From the NCBI GenBank assembly GCA_016933155.1, contig JAFGBM010000004.1, forward strand, positions 62,001 through 126,000: 64,000 nucleotides of DNA, read 5' to 3'. Positions 44,653 through 48,421 of the stretch are shown piece after piece. The position numbers and the translations under genes were made by a program. Positions within the stretch are counted from its first letter, which is position 1, and each line of letters opens with the position of its first letter. The DNA is from Demequinaceae bacterium (GTDB lineage: Bacteria > Actinomycetota > Actinomycetes > Actinomycetales > Demequinaceae). A model generated the notes under the pieces. That model was not told the DNA's origin and did no database searches. It was given only the letters and a program-made list of their open reading frames with translations.

Positions 44653-45555
44653 TCAGGCCCACCTGTCGACCCACGGCTCCAGACGGGACCAGATCGCATG
44701 GAATGAGCGCACAGACGTCAACATGTTCAGGCTTGACGACGGTTCTTCCCCCTGGGCAACCGCTTCGAGTGTCGACGGTAAATCGGCATCGAAATCCACC
44801 TCTCCCACGAGTTCGAGGCTCAGGTCTCGACATGCTGCTCTGATCCGCTCCGCTCCGGTTGCCGACAGGTCGGCCTTGTTCAGCACGACCTTGACCGGGA
44901 CACGCAGCTGATTCGCAAGTCCGACCAGCCGTCGCAGGTCGTGCTCCCCCGAGAGGGTCGGCTCCGTGACGGCCAACACTCCGTTGGCGCCGGTGATCGA
45001 GGCGATGGCTGGGCAGCCAACACCCGGCGGGCCGTCGATGACGACGAGTTCGGCATCACGCTCGTTCGCGATACCGTCGGCATGTTCTCGGACGCTGGTC
45101 ACGAGTTTGCCCGAGAGATCCTCACCCGGCCGCAGTCGACCGAAGACGATAGGCCCGGTGGGGCCTTCACCGACCAGGATCTCGCCTGCCTGGTGCGGAA
45201 GGAAAGAGATCGCGTCGACCGGGCAAACCTGAGCACAAGACCCACAGCTCTCGCACAACCAGGGATCGATGACGGCGAGGCCCTCGTCCGACTGGGACAA
45301 CGCGTCGAAGCGGCATTGGTCGATGCACGCCCCGCATCCCGTGCAGGCCCCCCCATCGACGACGGCCCTCGGATTCCCAGCGAACGGCGAGCGGGTGAGC
45401 ACGTCCACCCGCAGGGCGACGGGAAGGTTGGAGGCCTCCACGTCGCAGTCGGCGATGACCAACCGACGGGTAGATGCCGCGAGGCGAACCAACACGGCTG
45501 ACAGGGTGGTCTTCCCCGTCCCGCCCTTCCCCGAGGCCACGACGAGTGTTCTCAC
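44653..45555 (-). CDS. MinD-type ATPase with embedded 2[4Fe-4S] ferredoxin domain (copy 1)
   Basis: P-loop NTPase of 300 residues. Deviant Walker A SGKGGTGKTT (about 8-17), DCDVEASN near 38, then an inserted ferredoxin domain with two complete CxxCxxCxxxC sets (CTGCGACIDQC and CESCGSCAQVC, about 68-110), and the second half of the ATPase with VIDGPPGVGCP. Such proteins occur in pairs beside NifX-like proteins in anaerobes and are linked to Fe-S or metallocofactor assembly and electron transfer; exact activity is unknown. The GTG at 45555 overlaps the stop of copy 2 (GTGA). Last gene of the PadR-NifX operon. Confidence 0.85.
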   Translation of the reverse strand: MRTLVVASGKGGTGKTTLSAVLVRLAASTRRLVIADCDVEASNLPVALRVDVLTRSPFAGNPRAVVDGGACTGCGACIDQCRFDALSQSDEGLAVIDPWLCESCGSCAQVCPVDAISFLPHQAGEILVGEGPTGPIVFGRLRPGEDLSGKLVTSVREHADGIANERDAELVVIDGPPGVGCPAIASITGANGVLAVTEPTLSGEHDLRRLVGLANQLRVPVKVVLNKADLSATGAERIRAACRDLSLELVGEVDFDADLPSTLEAVAQGEEPSSSLNMLTSVRSFHAIWSRLEPWVDRWA

Positions 45556-46439
45556 GCCGGAACCTCCGATCCGATCGACGTCAACTGGGCTCGCACCGAC
45601 TCCCACAGATCCGAGAACCACTGATGACCGAGACCGTGCCCGTCGACCAGAAGCCCCCCATCCGCGTAGCAGGCCGCGACCTCCCGGTCAAAGGGGAACT
45701 CGGCAACGACCGAGATTCCCTCCGACCGGCAGTACCCGGCGATGTCGACGGCTCCGGTTCCGACGCGGTTGAGGACGACGGCCGCGGGCAGGTTCAGCCC
45801 CTTGGCGAGTTCGACCATCAGAGTCAGGTCGTGCAGGCCGAACGAGGTCGGCTCCGTGACGAGCAGCAGGAGGTCGACGCCGTGGAGGGTCGCGACGGCC
45901 GAGCAAGCCACCCCGGGCGGCGCGTCGAGGATCACCACGTCGGCACCCTCGGAGTCCGCCCGTTCCCGAGTCGCCCCGATGACCGTCGGCGCCTTCATCT
46001 GACCGATGTCGAGTTGACCCATCACGAGCAATAAGCCGTCCCGAACCACCCCCGCCCCGGTTTGGCCGACCCGGACCTGACGTTCCTGGAGCACCCCAGA
46101 CGGACAGGCATCGACGCACGCCCCGCAACTGTGGCACAGGTCAGGAAACACGACCGGACCACTCCCGAGCATGCGGATCGCCCCGAATCGGCAGGTGTCG
46201 CGGCACACCGCGCATCCCTCTGGGCAGTTGCCGGGGACCACCTCGGGGATCGGGACCTCGACAGCCCTGAAGTCGGGGTGGACGTCGAAGAAAAGGTGGT
46301 CGTTGGGTGCCTCCACGTCGCAGTCCGCCAGCGTCACGCGCAACCCGGTACGGGCGATGAGCACGGCCAAGTTGGTGGCCACAAGGGTCTTGCCCGTGCC
46401 TCCCTTGCCCGAGGCGACCGCTATCGTGATCGGCTTCAC
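45552..46439 (-). CDS. MinD-type ATPase with embedded ferredoxin domain (copy 2)
   Basis: Paralogue of the following gene, 295 residues. Walker A SGKGGTGKT (10-18), DCDVEAPN, an insert with CPEGCAVCRDTC (irregular first cluster, spacing C-x3-C-x2-C-x3-C) and a regular CHSCGACVDACP, then VILDAPPGVACSA. The loosened first motif differs from copy 1 and may bind a labile cluster. The two probably act as a heterodimer. It starts 10 bp after the NifX-like gene. Confidence 0.85.
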   Translation of the reverse strand: MKPITIAVASGKGGTGKTLVATNLAVLIARTGLRVTLADCDVEAPNDHLFFDVHPDFRAVEVPIPEVVPGNCPEGCAVCRDTCRFGAIRMLGSGPVVFPDLCHSCGACVDACPSGVLQERQVRVGQTGAGVVRDGLLLVMGQLDIGQMKAPTVIGATRERADSEGADVVILDAPPGVACSAVATLHGVDLLLLVTEPTSFGLHDLTLMVELAKGLNLPAAVVLNRVGTGAVDIAGYCRSEGISVVAEFPFDREVAACYADGGLLVDGHGLGHQWFSDLWESVRAQLTSIGSEVPA

Positions 46440-46449
46440 CCGGACCGCC

Positions 46450-46995
46450 TCATCCGAAATCGAGGCGGGTCAACTCACCCCGACCGAACGCGGCGACCGC
46501 CTCGCCAACGGTCAGACCCGCGGCCGTGTACACAGGAATGGCGGTCCGTCGGAAGGCGTCGGCCGCCTTCGGCCCCACCTTCGTCACGATCGCGACCTGC
46601 GCCCCGTGCTCGACGAGCAGTTCGACCGCCCCGATGCCAGCCCCCTCTGTTCCGCCTCGGTTCTCGTCATTGGAGATGACGACGACGGTCATGGTCTCCG
46701 GGTCGACCAACTGAAAGCACCCGGCACGTCCGAAACGATCATGAACCCGGTCCGACAGGGTCGGCCCTTCCGCGCACACGGCGATAGTCGTAAGAGAGGC
46801 CGACGCTTCACGGACCGAGTTGCCCGGCGCGATGTGCACGGTCCCCCCGTTTTCGCTCGCCCGACGGCAGGAACCGTCGCGTCGTCCGCGGCCGCCCCTG
46901 CGGCGGCAGTCTGCGGTCTCCCGATAACCGCACTCATGGTCGACCTCATTGGCACATCGTTCGTCCCTCGGTCCAGACTCATCGCAATTCGTCAT
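46450..46995 (-). CDS. NifX/NifB-family Fe-Mo-cofactor-binding-like protein with Cys-rich N-terminus
   Basis: Protein of 181 residues. The C-terminal 115 residues match the dinitrogenase iron-molybdenum cofactor family (NifX/NifY/VnfX fold: IAVCAEGPTLSDRVHDRFGRA, then GAVELLVEHGAQVAI and GLTVGEAVAAFGRGEL). The first 50 residues are a basic, Cys-containing extension (Cys at 4, 14, 22, 30 and 43). No nitrogenase genes are visible, so a general iron-sulfur or metal carrier or sensor is more likely. The ATG at 46995 overlaps the 3' end of the PadR gene by 17 bp, so both are on one mRNA. Start chosen because upstream frame lies wholly within PadR. Confidence 0.78.
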   Translation of the reverse strand: MTNCDESGPRDERCANEVDHECGYRETADCRRRGGRGRRDGSCRRASENGGTVHIAPGNSVREASASLTTIAVCAEGPTLSDRVHDRFGRAGCFQLVDPETMTVVVISNDENRGGTEGAGIGAVELLVEHGAQVAIVTKVGPKAADAFRRTAIPVYTAAGLTVGEAVAAFGRGELTRLDFG

Positions 46996-47464
46996 CGCCG
47001 TGCTCCTCACGGATTGTCGTGCTCTCTGAGTCCGCCAACGTGTTCGGCGGATCCTCCTGTCCAATCATCCGGTCAATCGCTCGCAAGATTCCGTCTAGTG
47101 CCGTTCGCCGAGCAACGAGCCTTTCAGCCCAGGAGCGAAGAACCTCGCGTCCGTCAGCGGTGAGCCGGTAGATACGCCGTTGTGGCCCGTGTTCGCCTTC
47201 CGTCCAGGTCGACGTCACGAGCCCCTCGTCTTCCATCCGACGAAGCGTCCGATACAAACCCCCTGGATCGACGACCAAGTAGCCTGACGTCAACTCCTCG
47301 ACTTCCGCGCGCAGGTCGTAGCCGTGAGACGTCGCGGTCGTGAGGGCGGCGAGGACCGCGGGTTCGAGCAGGCTGCCCCTCCCGGCACCACCGCCTCCGT
47401 GACCTCCCCCGTGACCTCCCCCACGGCCCCCGCCGCCACTGCCTCGGCCGTGTCCGTACGGCAT
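46979..47464 (-). CDS. PadR-family regulator with Gly/His-rich N-terminus
   Basis: Winged-helix transcription factor of 161 residues. The ATG at 47464 has GGAGG 5 nt upstream. PadR domain from about 33 to 110: LLEPAVLAALTTATSHGYDL, VDPGGLYRTLRRMEDEGLV and YRLTADG; then a helical dimerisation tail. The first 30 residues are Gly-rich with His5, His18 and His22, an unusual leader that could bind metal. It is first in the operon with the NifX-like protein and the two ferredoxin ATPases, and a palindromic site overlaps its promoter, so it probably represses its own operon. The inducer is unknown. Confidence 0.82.
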   Translation of the reverse strand: MPYGHGRGSGGGGRGGGHGGGHGGGGAGRGSLLEPAVLAALTTATSHGYDLRAEVEELTSGYLVVDPGGLYRTLRRMEDEGLVTSTWTEGEHGPQRRIYRLTADGREVLRSWAERLVARRTALDGILRAIDRMIGQEDPPNTLADSESTTIREEHGDDELR

Positions 47465-47474
47465 GCAAACCTCC

Positions 47475-47495
47475 ACATCTAGATGTTTCAAACAT
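47475..47495 (-). promoter_or_regulatory. Overlapping palindromes over the PadR promoter
   Basis: ACATCTAGATGT (47475-47486) and ATGTTTCAAACAT (47483-47495) are perfect palindromes sharing bases. The second contains ATGT and ACAT half-sites typical of PadR operators and adjoins a -10-like CATAAT on the minus strand. Likely autoregulatory operator. Confidence 0.6.
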
Positions 47496-47569
47496 TATGC
47501 CATGTCGAGGGTGGGTCGTAGGGACCTACGACCCGGTCGCCTCGTCATCGCTAGAGGATCATCGATCGT

Positions 47570-48421
47570 GTGCGGACCTACCTCGACTGCTACCCCTGTT
47601 TCCTCCGACAGGCCCTGAGCGCCGCCCGCATGGTCACCGACGACGAGGCCGCGCACCAGGCCGTCGTGACCGAGACGCTGGCCCTTCTCCAGGCCCTGCC
47701 GTCCGGCACCACCCCACCCGAGATCGCCTTCGAGGTGCATCGCCTCGTGCGAGAGCGGTTGGGCGACAGCGACCCATACGCGACCGTCAAGGCAGAGAGC
47801 ACGCGCGAGGCCCTGGCGTTGTACCCGCGGCTGACGGCCCTCGTCGCCGAGAGCGAGGACCCGCTGGACGCGGCGATTCGGGTCAGCATCGCGGGCAACA
47901 TCATCGACTTCGGCGTCAGCGACGACGTGCCGGACCTGTGGGCGACGGTCGAGCGAATCATGTCGGCCACGCTCGCGATCGACGACCGTGCCGGACTCCG
48001 CTCCGCGCTCGCCGCCGCCGACCGCGTGCTGTTCCTCGCCGACAACGCTGGCGAGACCGTATTCGACCGGGTGCTCCTCGAAAAACTCAAGCTTCCGGTG
48101 CTCTACGCGGTCAAAGGCGGCCCCATCCTCAACGACGCGACCCGCGAGGACGCTCTCGCCGCCGGCCTCGGCACGTGCGCGACCATCGTCGACAACGGCT
48201 CCCGCGCGCCCGGCACCGTCCTCGACCTCTGCTCACCGGAGTTCCGTGACACCTTCAACAACGCTCCGCTCGTCATCGCCAAGGGGCAGGCCAACTACGA
48301 GACGCTGAGCGAGGCCGGACCTCGCGTGTTCTGCCTATTGCAGGCCAAGTGCCCGGTCATCGCGGACGACATGCCCGCACCCGTCGGCAGCGCCGTCGTC
48401 TTCCAAGGCACGCTCCGCTGA
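47570..48421 (+). CDS. DUF89 / damage-control phosphatase family protein
   Basis: Metal-dependent phosphatase-like protein, 283 residues. It starts MRTYLDCYPCFLRQAL with two Cys, as in the short prokaryotic DUF89 subfamily, and has the active-site Asp-Asn in FLADNAGETVFD near 164 plus VKGGPILNDATREDA. DUF89 enzymes (ARMT1-like) hydrolyse damaged or excess phosphometabolites with Co, Ni or Mn; the substrate here is unknown. GTG start 47570, with GAGGA 11 nt upstream. Divergent from the PadR operon across 105 bp, so it may share its regulation. Confidence 0.8.
   Translation: MRTYLDCYPCFLRQALSAARMVTDDEAAHQAVVTETLALLQALPSGTTPPEIAFEVHRLVRERLGDSDPYATVKAESTREALALYPRLTALVAESEDPLDAAIRVSIAGNIIDFGVSDDVPDLWATVERIMSATLAIDDRAGLRSALAAADRVLFLADNAGETVFDRVLLEKLKLPVLYAVKGGPILNDATREDALAAGLGTCATIVDNGSRAPGTVLDLCSPEFRDTFNNAPLVIAKGQANYETLSEAGPRVFCLLQAKCPVIADDMPAPVGSAVVFQGTLR

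Follow-up and report, generated by a model that had tools for sequence, protein, structure and literature searches.

A PadR regulator with a glycine/histidine-rich arm and a predicted operator at the head of an ORP-like gene cluster in a Demequinaceae genome

NfeR (YqjI) of E. coli is a nickel-responsive repressor of the PadR family, whose PadR domain follows a Cys/His arm some 60 residues long; in work by Wang et al. from 2011 it reportedly controls the ferric reductase gene yqjH. In the small PadR proteins of the PadR-s2 group, LmrR and bcPadR1, ATGT/ACAT inverted repeats have been described in the promoters and autoregulation has been proposed (PMC3506622). The operons of the ORP (orange protein) complex in Desulfovibrio vulgaris are controlled by sigma54 together with IHF (PMC3897727), and the Di-Nase domains found in such systems are described as binding Fe-S or Mo/Cu clusters (PMC6345978). 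Here we compare these systems with a padR locus in a 64,000-nucleotide stretch of the genome of a Demequinaceae bacterium (the window).

The gene cluster and its PadR protein

The padR gene heads a tight cluster of four genes, which encode the PadR protein, a dinitrogenase-cofactor (Di-Nase) protein and two MinD/Mrp-like ATPases (Table 1). padR starts with the ATG at 47464-47462, and 46979 is the last base of its stop codon. The Di-Nase gene follows directly downstream, its start at 46995 overlapping the padR end by 17 bases; a gap of 10 bases separates it from the first ATPase gene, and the second ATPase gene, with an inferred start at the GTG at 45555, overlaps the preceding stop by 4 bases. 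The four genes are presumably co-transcribed. A gene for an ARMT1-like (DUF89) phosphatase near a Di-Nase/ATPase cluster was also noticed in two other genomes, at the loci L077 and L078.

Table 1. Features of the padR locus, in window coordinates
Feature	Position	Strand	Description	Basis
Second MinD/Mrp-like ATPase gene	44653..45555	-	two Fer4 stretches	Pfam CbiA 7.3e-13, Fer4 6.7e-12
MinD/Mrp-like ATPase gene	45552..46439	-	4Fe-4S ferredoxin motifs (Orp3/Orp4-like)	Pfam CbiA 1.7e-17, Fer4 1.4e-08
Di-Nase (Nitro_FeMo-Co, NifX-like) gene	46450..46995	-	Cys-rich N-terminal extension	Pfam PF02579 8e-17
padR gene	46979..47464	-	161 aa; Gly/His arm, winged helix, C-terminal helix	Pfam, AlphaFold2 model, tree
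Gly/His arm coding sequence	47372..47464	-	31 residues, 3 His, no Cys	sequence, low model confidence, arm with CC in orthologs
Ribosome-binding site GGAGG of padR	47470..47474	-		sequence
Third ATGT half-site	47475..47478	-	with the operator's right arm makes ACATCTAGATGT	same layout in L086
Predicted operator CATAATGT-TTGAA-ACATCTAG	47479..47499	-	matches conserved CTATATGT-N5-ACATATAG	best PWM score in the 64 kb window
Longer inverted repeat GGGTCGTAGG-GA-CCTACGACCC	47513..47534	.	lies upstream of the PadR operator at a distance of 13 bases; missed by the original prediction	
Divergent ARMT1-like (DUF89) damage-control phosphatase gene	47570..48421	+		Pfam PF01937 8.1e-67

The PadR domain (PF03551) spans residues 37-110 of the protein, with an E-value of 6.9e-21 and a score of 74.5 bits against a curated cut-off of 27. 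In the AlphaFold2 model a winged helix follows the arm, its first helix at residues 30-43, and a C-terminal helix of the dimerisation type follows the wing at 103-136. By its domain and this modelled helix the protein is a member of the PadR family. Its whole sequence contains no Cys.

A predicted operator in the padR promoter

The original prediction had placed two overlapping palindromes over the padR promoter. Both are exact: the 12-base ACATCTAGATGT at 47475-47486 and the 13-base ATGTTTCAAACAT at 47483-47495, each with no second match in the window even when one mismatch was allowed. When the 105-base intergenic region was shuffled 20,000 times, an overlapping pair with arms of at least 6 bases arose in only 3 of the shuffles. 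The two palindromes do not, however, form two operators. The minus strand reads CATAATGT-TTGAA-ACATCTAG and then ATGT, so that a single dyad with a 5-base spacer is accompanied by a third half-site; the 13-base palindrome is the core of this predicted operator, and the 12-base palindrome joins its right half-site to the third ATGT. The same extra half-site is seen beside the site CTAGATGT-ATATA-TCATCTAGATGT of the related locus L086.

The regulatory character suspected for the palindromes was supported by comparison with orthologous padR genes. A match of at least 12 of the 16 consensus positions of CTATATGT-N5-ACATATAG, with the 5-base spacer, was found upstream of 57 of the 63 loci where PadR is linked to Di-Nase, while six scored below 12; compared directly, the window site agrees with the consensus at 12 of 16 positions. 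Among shuffled regions, 12 of 3,150 scored at least 12; elsewhere in these loci, none of 309,711 positions did. Five of the 24 PadR genes without a Di-Nase neighbour also reached this score, so the operator is not wholly specific to the Di-Nase-linked set.

With a weight matrix (PWM) built from 52 distinct sites, the window excluded, the best position in the 64 kb window was 47479-47499, at 15.1 bits, and the next scored 6.9. The operators of the orthologs scored higher, from 17.8 to 38.3 bits, and the best score in 20 shuffled 64-kb windows was 16.7; with a shuffled maximum above 15.1, the signal of the window operator rests on its position as well as its score. The exact core, ATGT-N5-ACATNTAG, occurs once in the genome, with one other place at one mismatch. 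This uniqueness suggests that the own operon is probably the only target of the window PadR.

A search around the predicted operator gave no standard sigma-70 promoter, and a -35-like box 15-19 bases before TATAG accompanies only 16 of the 57 orthologous sites. The longer inverted repeat at 47513-47534 has a core, GTAGGNNCCTAC, that occurs once in the genome, and inverted repeats with arms of at least 10 bases arose in 10 of 20,000 shuffles of the intergenic region. It probably serves a different regulator or belongs to the divergent phosphatase gene. The idea that this 22-base repeat is a DosR-like box was dropped, since so short a GC-rich pattern would say little in this DNA. The presence of this separate and longer palindrome in the same gap means that another regulator may act here, and could be taken to suggest that the palindromes at padR are accidental or are used by some other regulator of the divergent gene pair. 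We regard this as very improbable, because dozens of orthologous promoters share the operator that the site matches and because its third half-site is common to the window and L086.

The arm and its relatives

The N-terminal arm of the original prediction is real. Residues 1-31, MPYGHGRGSGGGGRGGGHGGGHGGGGAGRGS, include 19 Gly and three His, at positions 5, 18 and 22, and the model confidence is low throughout (block means of 51, 45 and 47). The accompanying statement that PadR proteins normally start with the winged helix was too strong: E. coli NfeR has an arm, and Gly/His-rich arms of 51-116 residues were present at 11 of the 29 PadR loci taken from related genomes, a rough count given approximate start calls and a sample biased by a query that itself contained the arm.

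To follow the cluster through the phylum we searched 396 genomes for MinD1, of which 48 matched at 1e-30. The closest MinD1 proteins beyond the own genome, 51-54% identical, belong to G186, G219 and G240, all genomes of a single genus, where the gene order is PadR-NifX-NifX-MinD1-MinD2 and PadR is 45-47% identical to that of the window. In the class of G240 (Coriobacteriia in named records) a PadR match at 1e-18 was obtained in 74 of 396 genomes, at 76 places, and a Di-Nase gene adjoins the PadR of this subfamily at 59 of them. With 16 named loci, 5 of them duplicates, the loci examined numbered 92. As a BLAST search with the window Di-Nase misses a second Di-Nase type, an HMM made from five sequences was used instead, and the starts of some loci, L086 among them, were set by eye.

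An adjacent Cys pair (CC) lies in a Gly-rich arm in 57 of the 59 Di-Nase-linked PadR proteins of this class; of the other two, one (in G489) has a single Cys and one (in G552) is cut off at its start. Over the 76 places, a CC arm and a Di-Nase gene occur together at 57, the CC arm alone at 3, Di-Nase alone at 2 and neither at 14, counts that are inflated by kinship among the genomes. The window PadR shares the Gly-rich arm of this subfamily and lacks the Cys pair. The PadR of L086, 56% identical to it and adjoined by a Di-Nase gene, has an intermediate arm, PRRRPCGGGRGQGGHGGG, with one Cys and one His. The arm of the window protein is thus probably a Cys-free variant of the conserved arm.

At four of the 92 loci (L088, L089, L091 and L191) PadR and Di-Nase are encoded in one frame, and Pfam confirmed the fusion in both of those scanned, L088 and L191. 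Two of the loci L088, L089 and L091 are titled UBP9. In a tree of PadR proteins the window sequence fell among the Di-Nase-linked ones, apart from the three other PadR proteins of its own genome; the smallest starred set that included it had 10 rows, 8 of them Di-Nase-linked, although its exact place is unsure in an alignment of 105 columns. A separate group of PadR proteins, L194-L204, for which no Di-Nase neighbour was found, has a short arm, MWxxCxPK...EC.QLGKSLSR, with two Cys, and is possibly a second Cys-arm type.

Because the conserved arm holds a Cys pair in the relatives, it may reasonably have a role in ligand binding or redox, and could plausibly act in cluster, thiol or metal sensing; that the window arm has no Cys speaks against direct thiol sensing in this protein. 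Alternatively, the arm could be a passive, disordered Gly-rich linker in an autoregulated operon, the signal being a small molecule that, as in LmrR, binds in the core of the dimer, or else one received through Di-Nase. The predicted disorder, the missing Cys pair and the frequency of long Gly-rich arms in unrelated PadR proteins of the order would all fit such a linker. We nevertheless consider it rather unlikely, since the Gly-rich arm and the Cys pair are kept together in nearly all Di-Nase-linked relatives and since the window arm has kept three His, and that of L086 one Cys and one His. Less likely still, in our judgement, is the metal sensing suggested by the original prediction, in which the three His would bind Ni, Co, Zn or Fe(II) directly, like E. 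coli NfeR. The composition of the arm, His in Gly, and the Cys/His arm of NfeR speak for it; against it, the His are only three and widely spaced in Gly, the orthologs use Cys instead of His, and the neighbouring genes are of the Fe-S/thiometallate type, a scan of 7 neighbours having shown none for nickel or siderophores.

The N-terminal extension of the Di-Nase protein, encoded at 46840-46995, reads CDES...C...HECGY... and resembles the CRRRGG arm of the relatives' PadR proteins, as if a ligand element had moved from the PadR arm to its partner.

PadR matches were found in 55 of 59 genomes of the order, but with low identity outside the own genome; BLAST detected Di-Nase or ATPase genes beside PadR at none of 29 loci of relatives in the order (L006-L034), and MinD1 was absent from the other 58 of the 59 relatives searched. 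A PadR profile at 1e-22 retrieved only the own genome among 394 of its class, and in the phylum sample matches below 1e-40 came from the own genome and from two families (f64 and f42), both in the class of G240. The cluster at 44653-47464 was probably acquired horizontally, and the simplest reading would be a transfer from the class of G240 or a relative of that class.

Proposed role and comparison with known systems

The sequences themselves show the gene cluster, the conservation of operator and arm, the link to Di-Nase and the fusions, and with these in view we consider it probable, on balance, that PadR locally represses an ORP-like metal-cluster operon and is autoregulated through the conserved dyad. 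A PadR dimer would bind CATAATGT-N5-ACATCTAG at its own promoter, where the site covers the early leader and the probable -10 region, and would thereby repress, rather than activate, padR, the Di-Nase gene and both ferredoxin-containing MinD/Mrp-like ATPase genes; we infer autorepression because the operator covers the probable -10 region and the leader. The repression would probably be lifted when the arm or the partner Di-Nase protein meets a signal, which may be a redox change, a metal, or a cluster of the Fe-S or thiometallate type. Since Di-Nase domains bind Fe-S or Mo/Cu clusters, a cluster, metal or redox signal is likely. The window protein, which lacks the Cys pair, may use its His to read the signal or may hand the signal on to the Di-Nase partner with its Cys-rich extension.

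More tentatively, and with doubt outweighing confidence, we propose that the PadR subfamily found through one class of Actinomycetota could be a dedicated sensor-repressor of ORP-like operons, in which the Cys-Cys Gly-rich arm or the fused Di-Nase would read the operon's own Fe-S/thiometallate cluster (product feedback); the window would hold a horizontally acquired member with its Cys ligands replaced by His. If so, this member would provide a natural experiment on what the arm reads. A search of the open-licence literature, with most subscription papers outside its reach, found no description of a PadR protein that regulates ORP-like operons. The function and the signal of orange-protein systems are not settled, and a PadR protein with a conserved operator, a Cys-pair arm and natural Di-Nase fusions would offer a simple one-component handle on ORP-like systems: what releases it would tell what such a system responds to, and its operator predicts targets in dozens of genomes.

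Like LmrR and bcPadR1, the window protein is a small PadR with a winged helix and one long C-terminal helix. The half-sites agree with those published for PadR-s2, whereas the spacer is 5 in the window (ATGT-N5-ACAT) and about 8-10 in the published sites (PMC3506622). LmrR has multidrug ligands, and for LmrR and bcPadR1 the available part of PMC3506622 does not describe an arm, unlike that of the window PadR. NfeR does share an arm before the PadR domain, composed of Cys, His and Gly and ending in GGRHGRGGGRRQ; it is twice as long as that of the window and rich in Cys and His, whereas the latter has three His and no Cys. NfeR regulates nfeF (yqjH), while the neighbours here are Di-Nase and ARMT1-like genes with no adjacent nfeF, and in the tree NfeR fell outside the Di-Nase-linked group, on a long branch whose place is unsure.

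As far as the available part of PMC6345978 describes them, the ORP operons of D. vulgaris (Orp3, Orp4, Orp5, Orp8 and Orp9) resemble the window cluster in having a pair of related ATPases that carry ferredoxin motifs, of the Orp3/Orp4 type, together with an Orp8-type Di-Nase protein of one domain; neither an Orp9-like MrpORP nor Orp5 was found among the 7 window proteins scanned. In their regulation the two differ: where the D. vulgaris operons are described as depending on sigma54 and IHF (PMC3897727), the window cluster is headed by a PadR gene with its own predicted operator.
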